NCBI RefSeq assembly: GCF_002849595.1
Contig: NZ_NRQR01000008.1
Location: forward strand, 124,001 to 188,000
Source of the DNA: Luteimonas rhizosphaerae
GTDB lineage: Bacteria > Pseudomonadota > Gammaproteobacteria > Xanthomonadales > Xanthomonadaceae
Direction of reading: 5' to 3'
Length of the DNA stretch: 64,000 nucleotides
Under the pieces are notes generated by a model, which did no database searches, was not told where the DNA came from, and was given only the letters and a program-made list of their open reading frames with translations. Below are positions 19,074-27,104 of this stretch, in pieces. The translations under genes and the position numbers were made by a program. Each line of letters begins with the position of its first letter. The first letter of the stretch is position 1.

Positions 19074-20687
<1,614 letters not shown>

Positions 20688-20764
20688 TCCGGAAGCCCCG
20701 ACGCCGGGCGCGCTTGCGCAGTAGGCGGGTGCGGAACGACTGAAGCTCGCACTGGATTCGACTG

Positions 20765-20795
20765 GAAGGCCTCGCAGACGCGAGGCCTTCTTCGT
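20765..20795 (+). terminator. Rho-independent terminator after purA
   Basis: 11-bp perfect stem GAAGGCCTCGC-AGAC-GCGAGGCCTTC followed by TTCGTTC. It lies 78 bp after the purA stop. Confidence 0.85.
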
Positions 20796-20831
20796 TCGAC
20801 GAGGTCGATTTCTGTCGCCCGTCTGTTGCGC

Positions 20832-20866
20832 GCCTGCCGCCTGCCGCCTGCCGCGTGACGCGTGAC
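20832..20866. repeat. Heptamer microsatellite (GCCTGCC x3, GCGTGAC x2)
   Basis: Five consecutive 7-mers: three exact GCCTGCC then two exact GCGTGAC, with a decayed sixth (GCGACAG). It directly precedes the 600-bp-period block. Confidence 0.85.
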
Positions 20867-20897
20867 GCGACAGCAGGGCGCTGTCGCATCCGTGCTC

Positions 20898-20968
20898 TGT
20901 AGGAGCGCGCTCGCGCGCGAACGGGCCGTTGCGTGGAAGGCCCAATCGCGCGCGAGCGCGCTCCTACA
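20898..20968. repeat. 71-bp hairpin repeat, copy A
   Basis: Two arms of 23 bp starting TGTAGGAGCGCGCT form a perfect inverted repeat around a 25-nt loop, which itself has an inner GGGCC/GGCCC stem. REP/BIME-like dispersed element. Confidence 0.9.
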
Positions 20969-21497
20969 AGGGGCGGCTGATGCGGCAGCAGGGCGCCGCC
21001 GATTTCACGCCGAGGGCCGCCGCACGGTGGGATGTACAAGAGCGAGGTTTTTCCTGTGTTTTTCGACGGGCAGGTGTCGTGTCAGGCGGCATCATTTGAG
21101 ATCGCGTGACTTGGACGAGCAGGTGTCCGAAGCACGAAGCCAACGTCCCTGGATTCCCGCCTGCGCGGGAATGACGATTGAAGGTGAGGCGTCTGCGTGG
21201 TCCTGATCGTCCGCAGTGACGCGGTGCTTCGAGCCCGTCTCCCGTGTGCGGGAGACGGGTTGGGGTGAGGGCGCTCTGCGCGGGGCGCGCTGATCGTGAC
21301 GCCCCGGAGAATTCCGCCGGTCCGTCGTGTGACTCGATGTGATGTGTCTGTCTCGACGGGACTGTTTCCTAACGGCGACGATGTCCCGCAGGCACGTGGG
21401 ATCCATGCGCTGGAAAGCCGGCAGTGCGCGCGCTGCTGCGTTGACGGATTCGCGGCCGCGCCGTCGCCAGTGGCACGCGGATGACGCGGGTCACCCC

Positions 21498-21568
21498 TGT
21501 AGGAGCGCGCTTGCGCGCGAACGGGCCGTTGCGTGGAAGGCCCAATCGCGCGCGAGCGCGCTCCTACA
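21498..21568. repeat. 71-bp hairpin repeat, copy B
   Basis: Same element as at 20898 with one arm change (T for C in TGTAGGAGCGCGCTTGCGCG) and an identical loop. Confidence 0.9.
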
Positions 21569-22094
21569 AGGGGGCGGCTGATGCGGCAGCAGGGCGCCGC
21601 CGATTTCGCGCCGAGGGCCGCTGCACGGTGGGAGGTACAGGAGCGACGTTTTCTCTGCGTCTTTCGACGGACAGATGTCGGGTCAGGCGGAATCATTGGA
21701 GATCGCGCGATGTGGACGTAAAGAGTTCCGAAGCACGAAGCCAACGTCCCTGGATTCCCGCCTGCGCGGGAATGACGATTGAAGGTGAGGCGTATGCGTG
21801 GTCCTGATCGTCCGCAGTGACGCGGTGCTTCAAGCCCCTCTCCCGCCTGCGGGAGAGGGATTGGGGTGAGGGCGCTCTGCGCGGGGCGCCCTGACGAGAC
21901 GAATCGAAGAATTCACCGGTCCGTCGCGTGGGATGTGATGGGGCTGTCTCGACGGGACCGTCTTCAAACATCGAAGTCTTTACGTGGGAACGCGGGGTCC
22001 ATGCGCTGGAAAGCCGGCAGTGCTGGCGCTGTTGCGTGAGCTGATTCGCGGCTCTGCCGTCTTTCGTGGAACGCTGGCAACGCGGCCAAATCCC

Positions 22095-22164
22095 TGTAGG
22101 AGCGCGCTTGCGCGCGAAAGGGCCGTTGCGTGGAAAGCCCATCGCGCGCGAGCGCGCTCCTACA
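22095..22164. repeat. 71-bp hairpin repeat, copy C
   Basis: Same element with a slightly changed loop (aagggccgttgcgtggaaag) and intact arms. It starts 597 bp after copy B. Confidence 0.9.
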
Positions 22165-22358
22165 AGGAGAGGAGGGGACGGCTGATGGGACAGCAGGACG
22201 CTGCCGCGTGTCTGCGCAGACATGCGACCACGCAAGCCGGCGTGCCTGGATTCCCGGCTGAGCCACCAAATGTCGGTCTAGAGGCGCGGAAATGACGGTC
22301 ACACGTGCGCGGGTTGGATGCGTGCGCCATGCACCGGCGCACCACGCGCCGGCCTTAC

Positions 22359-22880
22359 CTACGTCGCATCGCCACCCGGCATGCCGGCCACGCAGCGCTC
22401 CAGCAGCGCGATGAGCTGTTCCTGCTCGTCGGGCTGCAGCGGCGCCAGCGCGCCGTCGATGACGCGTTCCGCCAGCGCCACGCCGCGGGTCACCCGGGCC
22501 AGGCCGTCGGCGGTGATCTCGAACGACAACACGCGGCCCAGGGTCGGATGCGGCTTGCGGGTCACCAGGCCGTCGCGGCCGAGGCGCAGCAGCAGCTGGT
22601 GCATCGTCTGCGGCGACACGCCCGCCAGCCGCGCGAGTTCCGCGTTGGACGCACCGGGGCGTTCGGCCAGCAGCATCAGCGTCCACGCCTGCGGACGCGT
22701 CAGTTCCATGCCGGCCTGGCGCGCCTGCTCCTCGATCAGGCCGGTCAGGCCGACGTGCAGGCGCTTGAGCCGCGTGCCCATGCGATAGGCCCGCGATTGC
22801 CTGAATGCACGCAAGGCTCGGGTGTCGCGATCGGGCACCGGCGCTCCGGAGTTATCAGTGGGCTGATAAATTACCAGCAT
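22359..22880 (-). CDS. MarR-family transcriptional regulator
   Basis: 173 residues as drawn, with a winged-helix MarR core: LTRPQAWTLMLLAERPGASNAELARLAGVSPQTMHQ (recognition helix around 80-95) and the wing RKPHPTLGRVLSFEIT. MarR proteins usually repress a divergent transporter operon and release DNA on binding a phenolic ligand. Here an RND efflux operon diverges from it. The start is uncertain: ATG 22880 leaves only 25 bp to the next gene and puts the inverted repeat 22852-22869 inside the coding sequence. A GTG at 22838 or the ATG at 22781 (MGTRLKRLHVG) would leave the repeat between the genes. Confidence 0.85.
   Translation of the reverse strand: MLVIYQPTDNSGAPVPDRDTRALRAFRQSRAYRMGTRLKRLHVGLTGLIEEQARQAGMELTRPQAWTLMLLAERPGASNAELARLAGVSPQTMHQLLLRLGRDGLVTRKPHPTLGRVLSFEITADGLARVTRGVALAERVIDGALAPLQPDEQEQLIALLERCVAGMPGGDAT
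22852..22869. promoter_or_regulatory. Candidate MarR operator
   Basis: Perfect inverted repeat TTATCAG-TGGG-CTGATAA, AT-rich against a GC-rich background and placed between the divergent marR and RND genes. TAAATT at 22867-22872 overlaps it and could be the -10 of the efflux operon. Size and spacing fit MarR-family sites; binding is inferred. Confidence 0.65.
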
Positions 22881-22905
22881 TCCGATCCGATCCGAGCCGC
22901 CTCCG

Positions 22906-24045
22906 ATGCCTGCCAAGTCCCTGCGCGTTCTCACCCTGGCTGGATTGTTCGCGCTGGCCGGCTGCGCGGACACCGATACGCCCGAGGCGACGCCCAGCCT
23001 GACGGTCGCGCTGGCCGCGCCGCAGACCCGCGACGTGGTCCGCGAGGTCGTCGCGTCCGGCGCCGTCGCGGCGTGGGAAGAAGTCTCGGTCGGCGTCGAA
23101 CTGTCCGGTGTGCGCGTCGCCAGTGTCGAAGTGGAAGTGGGCAGCGTCGTCGAAGCCGGCGACGTGCTGCTGCGGCTCGACGACCGCACGCTGGCCTCGC
23201 AGCTGCTGCAGGCCGACGCGTCGGCGACGGAAGCGGCGACCAACCTGGAAACCGCGCGCCGCCAGGCCGCACGCGTGCGCGAACTCGCCGACGAGCAGAT
23301 GGTCTCCGTGCAGGACGCCGAGGAAGCCGAAGCCGCGCGCGACAACGCCCAGGCGCGGCTCAACACCGCCATCGCCAGTCGCGACGCCGCGCGCGTGCAG
23401 CGCGGTTTCACCGTCGTGCGCGCGCCGGTCGCGGGCGTGGTGTCGGCGCGCAGCGTGCAGCCGGGGCAGGTGGTCGGCGCCGGAGGCGAGCTGCTGCGCC
23501 TGATCCGCGATGGCCGCCTGGAATGGCGCGCCGAACTGGCCGAGGCCGACCTGCTGCTGGTTGCGCCCGGTGCCCTCGTGCAGGTGGACACGCCCGCCGG
23601 GCCCGTCGCGGGCCAGGTGCGCCGCGTCTCCCCTTCGCTCGATGCGCAGAGCCGCACCGCCACCATCTATGTCGATCTGCCCGCGCCCGGCCCGCTGCGC
23701 GCCGGCATGTTCGCGCAGGGCCGCATCACGCTTGGTCGCGCGGATGCGCTGCTGATTCCGCTCGATGCCGTCGTGCGCCGCGATGGCCGCGCCTACGTGT
23801 TCACCGTCGAGGACGACCACCGCGTGCGCGAGCGCGGCGTCGCGGTCGGCGCCACCCACGGCGGCCAGATCGAACTGCCCGACGGCCTGACCACCGACGA
23901 TCGTGTCGTCGCGCGCGGCGCCGGCTTCCTCGGAGATGGCGACCTGGTGCGCGTCGTCGATGCGCAGGCCGCGGACGCGCCGCCGCCGCAGGCGCAACCT
24001 GCCGATGCCGACGCGGATGCCGCCACCGGAACCGATGCCCGATGA
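22906..24045 (+). CDS. RND efflux periplasmic adaptor (membrane fusion protein)
   Basis: 379-residue HlyD/AcrA-type adaptor that links an RND pump to an outer-membrane channel. The signal peptide ends in the lipobox LFALAGC, so it is probably a lipoprotein. The barrel-sandwich hybrid (VSVGVELSGVRVASVEVEVGS region), a short helical hairpin rich in Ala/Glu (about 95-150) and the RAPVAGVVSARSVQPGQVV lipoyl half-motif are present. The C-terminal tail is Ala/Asp-rich. It overlaps the pump gene by 4 bp. No outer-membrane factor gene follows, so a TolC-type partner must be encoded elsewhere. Confidence 0.93.
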   Translation: MPAKSLRVLTLAGLFALAGCADTDTPEATPSLTVALAAPQTRDVVREVVASGAVAAWEEVSVGVELSGVRVASVEVEVGSVVEAGDVLLRLDDRTLASQLLQADASATEAATNLETARRQAARVRELADEQMVSVQDAEEAEAARDNAQARLNTAIASRDAARVQRGFTVVRAPVAGVVSARSVQPGQVVGAGGELLRLIRDGRLEWRAELAEADLLLVAPGALVQVDTPAGPVAGQVRRVSPSLDAQSRTATIYVDLPAPGPLRAGMFAQGRITLGRADALLIPLDAVVRRDGRAYVFTVEDDHRVRERGVAVGATHGGQIELPDGLTTDDRVVARGAGFLGDGDLVRVVDAQAADAPPPQAQPADADADAATGTDAR

Positions 24046-27000
24046 ACTTCTCGGCCTGGTCCATCCAGCGGCCGCTGCCGGCGATCCTGGTCTTCATCCT
24101 GCTGACGGCCGCGGGCCTCGTCGCCTTCCGCATGCTGCCGGTCTCGCAGTTCCCGGACCTCACCGTGCCGGTGGTCAACATCACCGTGAGCCTGCCGGGC
24201 GCCAGCCCCAGCACGCTGGAAACCCAGGTCACGCGCAAGGTCGAGGACGCGGTGGCCAGCATCGCCGACATCGACGACATGACCTCGATCGTCAACGAAG
24301 GCGTGTCGACGACCATCATCCGCTTCGACATCGAGCGCGACGGCAACATCGCCAAGGACGAAGTGCGTGACGCGATCGACCGCGTGCGCATCGACCTGCC
24401 GGGCGACGTCGAGCCGCCGATCGTCTCGCTGGTCAACGTCACCGCCGGCGACATCCTCACCTTCGCCGTGACCGCCGACGGCTGGAGCGACGAAGAGCTC
24501 AGCTGGTACATCGACGACACCGTCAGCAAGCGCCTGTTCGGCCTGCCCGGCGTGGGCGCGGTGCGGCGCATCGGCGGGATCGACCGCGAGATCCGCGTCG
24601 ACCTGCGGCCCGAAGCGGTGCAGGGCTTCGGCGTCAGCCCGGCGCTGCTGTCGCAGCAGCTCGCGCGCATCCAGCAGGAGCAGCCCGGCGGCCGCACCAC
24701 CGTGGGCGGCAGCGAACAGGCCGTGCGCACGCTCGGCACCGTGACCAGCGCCGAGGACCTCGCCAACTATCCGATCTTCGTACCCGACGGCCGCAGCGTG
24801 CGCCTGTCCACACTGGCCGACGTCCGCGATGGCGGCGCGCAGATCACCCAGCGCACCACACTCGATGGTCGCCCGGTGATCGGCTTCGCCGTGCAGCGCA
24901 CCGTCGGCTCGAGCGAGGTCGGCGTCGGCAACGCGGTGCGCGACAGCATCGACGCGCTGCAGACCGAGCAGCCGCGGCTGCGCATCGTCGAAGTCGCCTC
25001 GACCACCGAGGTCGCCGAGAACTCCTACGCCTCCTCGATGCACATGCTGTGGGAAGGCGCCGCGCTCGCGGTGCTGGTGGTGCTGCTGTTCCTGCGCGAC
25101 ATGCGCGCGACCTTCATTTCCGCGGTCGCGCTGCCGCTGTCGATCATCCCGACCTTCGCGGTGATGTACTGGCTGGGCTTCAGCCTCAACATGATCACGC
25201 TGCTGGCGCTGGCCGTGGTGGTCGGCATCCTCGTCGACGACGCCATCGTCGAGGTCGAGAACATCGACCGCCACCTGCGCATGGGCAAGACGCCGAAGCA
25301 GGCCGCGATGGAGGCCGCCGACGAGATCGGCCTCGCCGTCGTCGCCACCTCCTGCACGCTGGCCGCGGTGTTCATCCCGGTCGCCTTCATGCCCGGCATT
25401 CCCGGCAAGTTCTTCCGCGAGTTCGGTTGGACCGCGGCCGCGGCGGTGATGTTCTCGCTGCTGGTGGCGCGCCTGATCACGCCGATGATGGCCGCCTACA
25501 TGCTCAAGCCGATGCCCGAGCACACGGGCGACTCGAAGCTGATGCAGCGTTACCTGCGCTGGGTGGACGCCGCGCTGCGCCATCGCGGCCGCACGCTGGC
25601 GCTGGCGTTCGCGCTGTTCCTCGGCTCGCTGGCGTTGCTGCCGCTGATCCAGGTGACTTTCATCCCGCCGACCGATGGCCTGCAGAGCACCGTCGCCGTC
25701 GAGCTGCCACCGGGCACGTCGCTCGACACCACCAGCGAGATCGCCGAGGCCGCGCGTCGTCGCATCGCCGACATGCCCGAGATCACGCACGTCTTCCTCA
25801 CCGCCGGCAGCAACAGCGGCGCCAGCGGGCCGGGTGACATCTCCAGCGCAGAGATCCGCAAGGCCACGCTGACCATCCGCTGGAACGACGACCGCGACCT
25901 CACCCAGTATGAGCTCGAAGGCCAGGTGCGCGATCGTCTCGCCGACCTACCGGGCGTGCGCATCAGCTTCCAGGGCGGCGAACCCGGCCGCGCGCTGCAG
26001 CTGGTGCTGGCCGGCGACGACCCGGTGAAGCTGGCCGAGGCCGCGCGCGACGTCGAACGCGGCATCCGCCAGTTGCCCGGCCTGGGCACGGTGAGTTCGT
26101 CGGCCTCGCTGGTGCGCCCGGAAGTCATCGTGCGGCCCGACGCCGCACGCACTGCGGATCTCGGCGTGTCCACGGCCGACATCGCGGCGGCCACCCGCGT
26201 CGCCACGCGCGGCGATTACGAGCAGTTCCTCTCCAAGCTCAACCTGCCCGAACGCCAGGTGCCGATCCGCGTGCAACTGGCGGAATCCGCGCTGTCGGAC
26301 CCCGCGCTGCTCGGCCAGTTGCGCGTGCCGACCGCCAGCGGCGGCAGCGTGCCGCTGTCGTCGGTCGCCGACATCAGGACCGCCAGCGGCCCCTCGCAGA
26401 TTGATCGCTTCGACCGCCAGCGCAACGTCACCATCACCGTCGACCTCAACGGCATGGCGATGGGCGAGGTGGAAAAGCAGATCGACGCGCTGGCGTCGCT
26501 GACCAACCTGCCGGTCGGCGTGGAACGCCAGGCCGCGGGCGACAGCGAAGTGTTCGCGGAGATGTTCGGCGGCTTCGCCATGGCGATGGTCGCCGGCATC
26601 TTCTGCGTCTACGGCGTGCTGCTGCTGCTGTTCAACCACGCCAGCCAGCCGATCACCATCCTGGTCGCGGTGCCGCTGGCCGCTGGCGGCGCGTTCGGCG
26701 CGCTGCTGCTGACCGGCATGGACATCTCGCTGTCGGTGCTGATCGGCCTGATCCTGCTGATCGGCATCGCGGTCAAGAACTCCATCCTGCTGGTGGACTA
26801 CGCCGTCATCGCACGCGACGAGCAGGGCCTGTCGCGCCACGACGCGCTGATGGACGCCTGCCACAAGCGCGCCCGGCCCGTGCTGATGACCAGCCTCGCG
26901 ATGGGCGCCGGCATGCTGCCGATCGCGCTCGGCTTCACCGCCGATTCCAGCTTCCGCGCCCCGATGGCGATCGCCGTCATCGGCGGCCTCATCACCTCCA

Positions 27001-27104
27001 CGCTGCTCAGCCTGATCGTGGTGCCGGCGGCGTTCACGCTGGTCGACGATGCGGAGGAGTGGGTGGGGCGGAAGTTGCGGCGGAAGCCGGCGGCGGCCGC
27101 CTGA
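24042..27104 (+). CDS. RND efflux pump inner-membrane permease (HAE-1/AcrB type)
   Basis: 1020-residue proton-driven transporter with the typical twofold layout: one transmembrane helix (residues 10-30), a large periplasmic porter loop, helices 2-7, a second loop, helices 8-12. Helix 4 contains the proton-relay pair in VVGILVDDAIVEVENIDRH. The C-terminal half has GIAVKNSILLVDYA and ALLLTGMDISLSVLIGL. The first residues MNFSAWSIQRPLPAILVFI are like MexB/MdtBC relatives. It is co-translated with the adaptor. The ligand range cannot be read from the sequence. Confidence 0.94.
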   Translation: MNFSAWSIQRPLPAILVFILLTAAGLVAFRMLPVSQFPDLTVPVVNITVSLPGASPSTLETQVTRKVEDAVASIADIDDMTSIVNEGVSTTIIRFDIERDGNIAKDEVRDAIDRVRIDLPGDVEPPIVSLVNVTAGDILTFAVTADGWSDEELSWYIDDTVSKRLFGLPGVGAVRRIGGIDREIRVDLRPEAVQGFGVSPALLSQQLARIQQEQPGGRTTVGGSEQAVRTLGTVTSAEDLANYPIFVPDGRSVRLSTLADVRDGGAQITQRTTLDGRPVIGFAVQRTVGSSEVGVGNAVRDSIDALQTEQPRLRIVEVASTTEVAENSYASSMHMLWEGAALAVLVVLLFLRDMRATFISAVALPLSIIPTFAVMYWLGFSLNMITLLALAVVVGILVDDAIVEVENIDRHLRMGKTPKQAAMEAADEIGLAVVATSCTLAAVFIPVAFMPGIPGKFFREFGWTAAAAVMFSLLVARLITPMMAAYMLKPMPEHTGDSKLMQRYLRWVDAALRHRGRTLALAFALFLGSLALLPLIQVTFIPPTDGLQSTVAVELPPGTSLDTTSEIAEAARRRIADMPEITHVFLTAGSNSGASGPGDISSAEIRKATLTIRWNDDRDLTQYELEGQVRDRLADLPGVRISFQGGEPGRALQLVLAGDDPVKLAEAARDVERGIRQLPGLGTVSSSASLVRPEVIVRPDAARTADLGVSTADIAAATRVATRGDYEQFLSKLNLPERQVPIRVQLAESALSDPALLGQLRVPTASGGSVPLSSVADIRTASGPSQIDRFDRQRNVTITVDLNGMAMGEVEKQIDALASLTNLPVGVERQAAGDSEVFAEMFGGFAMAMVAGIFCVYGVLLLLFNHASQPITILVAVPLAAGGAFGALLLTGMDISLSVLIGLILLIGIAVKNSILLVDYAVIARDEQGLSRHDALMDACHKRARPVLMTSLAMGAGMLPIALGFTADSSFRAPMAIAVIGGLITSTLLSLIVVPAAFTLVDDAEEWVGRKLRRKPAAAA

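Follow-up and report, generated by a model that had tools for sequence, protein, structure and literature searches.

A tandem array of REPINs with a 600-bp period between purA and marR of Luteimonas rhizosphaerae

How does a non-coding unit of about 600 bp come to be repeated head to tail between two genes, and does the repetition serve the cell? The locus that raises this question lies in a 64,000-nucleotide stretch of the Luteimonas rhizosphaerae genome (NCBI RefSeq assembly GCF_002849595.1, contig NZ_NRQR01000008.1, positions 124,001 to 188,000), here called the window, in the gap between the convergent genes purA and marR. Each unit opens with element A, in which two repetitive extragenic palindromic (REP) sequences face each other as a REP doublet forming hairpins (REPIN). 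Further short elements (B, C and D) follow, joined by linkers. We conclude that the locus is very probably a tandem REPIN array of the bacterial interspersed mosaic element (BIME) type, which arose as a by-product of repeat dynamics.

Structure of the array

The initial annotation described two units of about 600 bp and a truncated third, arranged head to tail between purA and marR. The sequence, a self-alignment and a repeat search all agree with this layout (Table 1); the longest period handled by Tandem Repeats Finder is 500, and the array is hence outside its listing. Units 1 and 2 align over their full length, linkers included, which bears out the proposal that the unit was duplicated as a whole. 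In the end-to-end alignment, 520 columns match, 67 mismatch and 23 contain gaps, which gives 88.6% identity at ungapped positions. A 300-bp core aligns gap-free at 90% identity, far above chance. Similarity thus extends beyond the palindromes in the self-comparison. The spacing of 600 and 597 bp, which had been read as a preserved register, is real but reflects several indels whose effects on length almost offset one another. The three palindromes ascribed to every unit are present in units 1 and 2, whereas what remains of unit 3 is A, the first part of the linker and a B with an interruption, with C not detectable in the alignments.

The middle REPIN, A2, is a mosaic. It shares with A3 the DNA upstream and one informative site in the left arm, and with A1 three sites further to the right and the sequence on through D. 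An unequal crossover within the REPIN, between A1 and A3, would produce exactly this trace, which we regard as supportive rather than conclusive evidence for such an event.

Identity between units 1 and 2 is uneven: 99% in A, 88% in the A–B linker, 100% in B, 98% in the B–C linker, 87% in C and 81% in the last linker. It is near 98–100% across A–D and again from B through the B–C linker. This patchiness, equalled by 0 of 5000 shuffles, suggests later gene conversion between units. Since the conserved B–C linker is not palindromic, local gene conversion accounts for the pattern better than selection on hairpins.

The units are non-coding, as originally proposed. All six frames contain stops (1–7 per unit per frame) and the spurious open reading frames of the units have no Pfam match, on which grounds a coding origin was rejected. 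A known structured RNA was discarded as well: Rfam returned only microRNA-precursor and similar models, far under their gathering scores and driven by the long hairpins. No sigma-70-like promoter was found in the array, and nothing in the Pfam, Rfam and promoter searches points to a dedicated product or RNA.

Table 1. Features of the array and its surroundings (window positions)
Feature	Position	Strand	Description
purA	19380..20687	+	context; exact start uncertain
Hairpin GAAGGCCTCGC/GCGAGGCCTTC	20765..20790	+	perfect hairpin 3′ of purA, before the array; likely terminator, read from the sequence
D0	20869..20886	+	motif GACAGCAGGGCGCTGTCG, hairpin; upstream of A1; possible leftover of an earlier unit
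Unit 1	20897..21496	+	A1-D1-linker-B1-linker-C1-linker; 600 bp
A1 REPIN	20898..20968	.	two GTAG-type REPs facing each other (arms 20899-20920, +, and 20946-20967, -); 23-bp stem; DNA fold -42.2 kcal/mol, z -8.9
D1	20984..21001	+	motif GGCAGCAGGGCGCCGCCG
B1	21147..21177	-	CGTC-1-like REP: CGTC tag, ATTCCCGC stem, CCA tail (minus strand)
C1	21233..21273	+	triplex-motif-like hairpin (21233-21260), GGGGTGAGGGC tail; stem pair swapped relative to C2
Unit 2	21497..22093	+	A2-D2-linker-B2-linker-C2-linker; 597 bp
A2 REPIN	21498..21568	.	mosaic: A3-like left, A1-like right
D2	21585..21602	+	motif GGCAGCAGGGCGCCGCCG
B2	21748..21778	-	CGTC-1-like REP; same sequence as B1
C2	21836..21874	+	hairpin at 21836-21859; CCCTCTCCC..GGGAGAGGG..GGGGTGAGGG; fits published intrastrand triplex motif
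Unit 3, decayed	22094..22297 (end approximate)	+	A3, 8-9 bp insertion, D3, ~130 bp deletion, B3 with ~23 bp interruption, no C
A3 REPIN	22095..22164	.	REPIN
D3	22189..22206	+	motif GACAGCAGGACGCTGCCG; one mismatch to the D pattern
B3	about 22245..22297	-	CGTC-1-like REP with ~23 bp interruption
marR	22359..22877	-	MarR-family regulator gene, convergent with purA; exact start uncertain

Dispersed elements and local linkers

Elements A, B and C are each scattered genome-wide. The 22-nt REP of A is letter for letter the REP associated with a REP-associated tyrosine transposase (RAYT) of Xanthomonas campestris, GTAGGAGCGCGCTCGCGCGCGA (PMC2817692, Table 1), and has the make-up of a GTAG-type REP: the GC-rich imperfect palindrome of the family comes after a GTAG head. 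In all three A copies the inverted REP pair forms a single long hairpin with a 23-bp stem (z about −8.5 to −8.9). The REP is a high-copy, dispersed repeat in this genome, with 31 exact occurrences and 150 when up to three mismatches are allowed; a reversed control occurs once. Each of the six arms in the array is an exact copy, compared with 25 of 144 other sites (Fisher p about 5e-5, the six arms not being independent of one another), which fits recent duplication or homogenisation.

Element B matches the published description of CGTC-1 REPs (PMC3733652), with a CGTC tag, an 8-bp stem opening with A–T pairs, a 4-nt loop and a CCA tail. Element C consists of a CTCTCCC/GGGAGAG hairpin followed by GGGGTGAGGGC. 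On its sequence, C2 fits the intrastrand triplex motif (TM), with a pyrimidine–purine hairpin and then a purine-rich third strand (PMC4666352, table), and C1 does so in part only. A stem pair is swapped between the two C hairpins (G–C against C–G), so that pairing is kept despite the sequence change. Element D, a fourth short motif of 18 nt that the initial annotation did not mention, has exact genome matches at three array copies only, the fourth array copy being one mismatch off. Since D0 precedes unit 1, the array probably starts near 20869; the position of D0 suggests that the array once reached, or began at, about this point.

The linkers behave differently from A, B and C. Among the matches listed, those of the array elsewhere in the genome and in 51 congeners fall on A, B and C, and none falls on the linkers. 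A 165-bp stretch of the A–B linker gave nothing beyond short weak matches in 395 genomes of the family; these are about 21–57 bp long, mostly at the D end, scattered, and may be due to chance or to coding sequence. A search of phages with a linker gave no match, and a plasmid search returned matches to the B and C elements only, in unrelated bacteria. One candidate was set aside: a 20-nt linker word has one exact match in a large genome collection, in an unrelated assembly, and was judged to be a chance hit. The whole unit was not found at several unlinked loci, the distribution that marks a composite transposable element, and the searches of the genome and its relatives revealed no identical mobile copies. 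With no linker matches listed in the genome, congeners or family beyond short weak ones, the 600-bp composite is local, not dispersed and not itself mobile.

The genus contains other tandem arrays of A plus linker, which repeat at intervals of about 83–215 bp in up to five copies. They include five copies at ~190 bp (locus L143) and four at ~147 bp (L144), with further examples at L145, L147, L157 and L160.

A RAYT-like relic of a Y1-transposase gene, with A-type REPs on both sides, is found in this genome (G000:C15:169503-169679; L142, L196). Compared with its homologues it carries an in-frame stop and a frameshift, barring assembly error. Its homologues in congeners G023, G028 and G031 have open frames and A REPs on their flanks; these three genomes are the richest of the genus in the A REP (765, 400 and 516 sites, respectively, at two mismatches or fewer, compared with 122 here). 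The A REP therefore flanks RAYT-like genes in four genomes, one of them broken, as is characteristic of a cognate RAYT. A second Y1 transposase of this genome (G000:C15:147218-147544, L141; 329 aa) has an open frame and no A copies nearby. With a broken RAYT-like gene beside the A-type REPs, it is likely from the sequence that A is no longer able to move here.

The likely purA terminator hairpin precedes the array, which therefore has the 3′ end of a convergent gene on either side, a common setting for REPs (PMC3733652). A simple terminator scan did not flag this hairpin. Among 21 congener purA loci read (L120–L140), marR follows purA in two, with a gap of 82 bp in G004 and of about 850 bp, apparently containing a small open frame, in G037; a direct single-copy ancestor of the array was not found among these 21 loci.

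The region downstream of purA (window 20687–27104) is variable in the genus, with marR, a membrane-fusion gene and a resistance-nodulation-division (RND) pump gene close behind purA in 2 of the 21 loci. In congener G029 (L120, G029:C32:14000-30000), the intact purA is followed downstream by two additional 3′ fragments of the gene, with 109 and 65 codons matched. They are interleaved with other DNA; one 315-bp copy is 96% identical, and a 235-bp stretch is duplicated as well.

Origin of the array

A sequence of ordinary events most likely produced this arrangement. RAYT-associated REPINs (A) would have settled in the intergenic DNA 3′ of purA, where a CGTC-type REP (B) and a triplex-motif hairpin (C) were also present. 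The DNA lying between two flanking REPINs would then have been duplicated by homologous recombination or replication slippage between them, giving A-linker-A-linker-A. Later, point changes and indels would have separated the copies, local gene conversion would have kept parts of them alike, and the third unit would have decayed. Unequal recombination had been one of the origins put forward initially, and the mosaic middle REPIN together with the lack of linker matches elsewhere argues for it. The array most likely acts as ordinary REPs do where convergent genes end, forming hairpins in transcripts or DNA, to judge from what is known of such repeats. Any effect on the cell would accordingly be an ordinary REP effect, exerted through gyrase binding, through polymerase pausing or through hairpins that lie at the 3′ ends of transcripts between the convergent genes.

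Several points weigh against this account. The left side of the crossover in A2 is marked by one informative site only. The 600-bp period is about three times the longest congener period found here, and the units hold two repeat classes besides A. The array is seen in one strain of the species, so that copy-number change between strains is unseen. Lastly, the genome searches score part of the first-look candidates per genome, and diverged single linker copies could be missed.

The other origin proposed at the outset, a RAYT-type process, is supported for element A, given its identity to a published RAYT REP and its place beside RAYT-like genes, but not for the composite, which was not found elsewhere. 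That the composite is itself mobile, moved whole by a RAYT or other transposase and inserted repeatedly at one site, would suit bounding REPINs of a RAYT-tied family. We nevertheless consider this extremely unlikely, in view of linkers that have no listed match elsewhere in the genome and only short weak ones in the genus and family, a 20-nt linker word whose single exact match lies in an unrelated assembly, and a RAYT that is broken beside the A-type REPs of this genome. Equally hard to credit is an origin from decayed duplicated gene fragments, comparable to the copies of the purA 3′ end that one relative carries downstream of that gene. Although the two extra fragments in G029 indicate that the region is prone to duplications, the unit readings tested have no Pfam match, stops occur in all frames, and the linkers lack DNA similarity to purA or to the downstream regions of relatives.

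Selection offers a different kind of explanation. Strong hairpins, the C stem pair changed on both sides between units, and the higher conservation of A, B and the B–C linker than of the rest could mean that the units give rise to a structured or regulatory non-coding RNA whose tandem copies selection maintains. This is very unlikely, however, as no Rfam family scored above its gathering score, no sigma-70-like promoter was found, the linker was not found in congeners and the hairpins are genome-wide repeats; patchy gene conversion is also a better fit to a conserved B–C linker that is not palindromic. Very unlikely, too, is the reading that selection maintains the array and keeps its units partly alike because they act together, for example as a transcription or replication barrier between purA and marR. 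A tandem REPIN array formed by recombination among repeats, with no dedicated function, would account for the locus without such selection. The array then offers a readable case of REPINs reshaping intergenic DNA, in which the mosaic middle copy marks a probable recombination join, and it presents a known REP family tied to a RAYT whose frame is open in the three REP-richest congeners and broken here. Existing knowledge of REPs is unchanged by it.

Comparison with known repeat systems

The closest parallels are ordered clusters, defined as tandem repeats of REPINs with flanking sequences included (PMC3116915); large clusters reiterated together with segments of flanking DNA have likewise been described (PMC3733652). 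Here, too, a REPIN and its flanking DNA are repeated head to tail at one locus. Some of the ordered REPIN clusters of Pseudomonas fluorescens SBW25 adjoin RAYT genes, and the largest cluster of this type there is just over 700 bp in total, whereas the present array has 600 bp per unit and two other repeat classes (PMC3116915). In X. campestris, the identical 22-nt REP occurs in inverted copies on the flanks of a RAYT and is associated with BIMEs (PMC2817692). Unlike in that species, the RAYT-like gene beside A-type REPs is broken in L. rhizosphaerae, and the array does not adjoin a RAYT.

Elements B and C have counterparts of their own. The tag, stem, loop and tail of B all fit the Neisseria dRS3/CGTC-1 REPs (PMC3733652). 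Unlike CGTC-1 dimers, B occurs singly in each unit; B dimers are found elsewhere in this genome (L154, L155). C2 has the CCCTCTCCC-GGGAGAGGG-GGGGTGAGGG layout of TM motifs, which have been linked with rearranged loci (PMC4666352), and C1 departs from them in that its swapped stem pair breaks the pure purine/pyrimidine tract.

Escherichia coli BIME-2 elements consist of tandem alternating REPs with linkers, as does the array. Their linkers are short, tens of bp, and the DNA between successive REPINs here, in contrast, exceeds 500 bp. Taking the congener arrays of A plus linker together with the published ordered REPIN clusters with flanking DNA, we assign the array to a known kind. The strangeness implied by the initial annotation was overstated, as such clusters had already been described (PMC3116915, PMC3733652). 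The array is real and ordinary in kind, and its long period and its three repeat classes are its sole unusual points.
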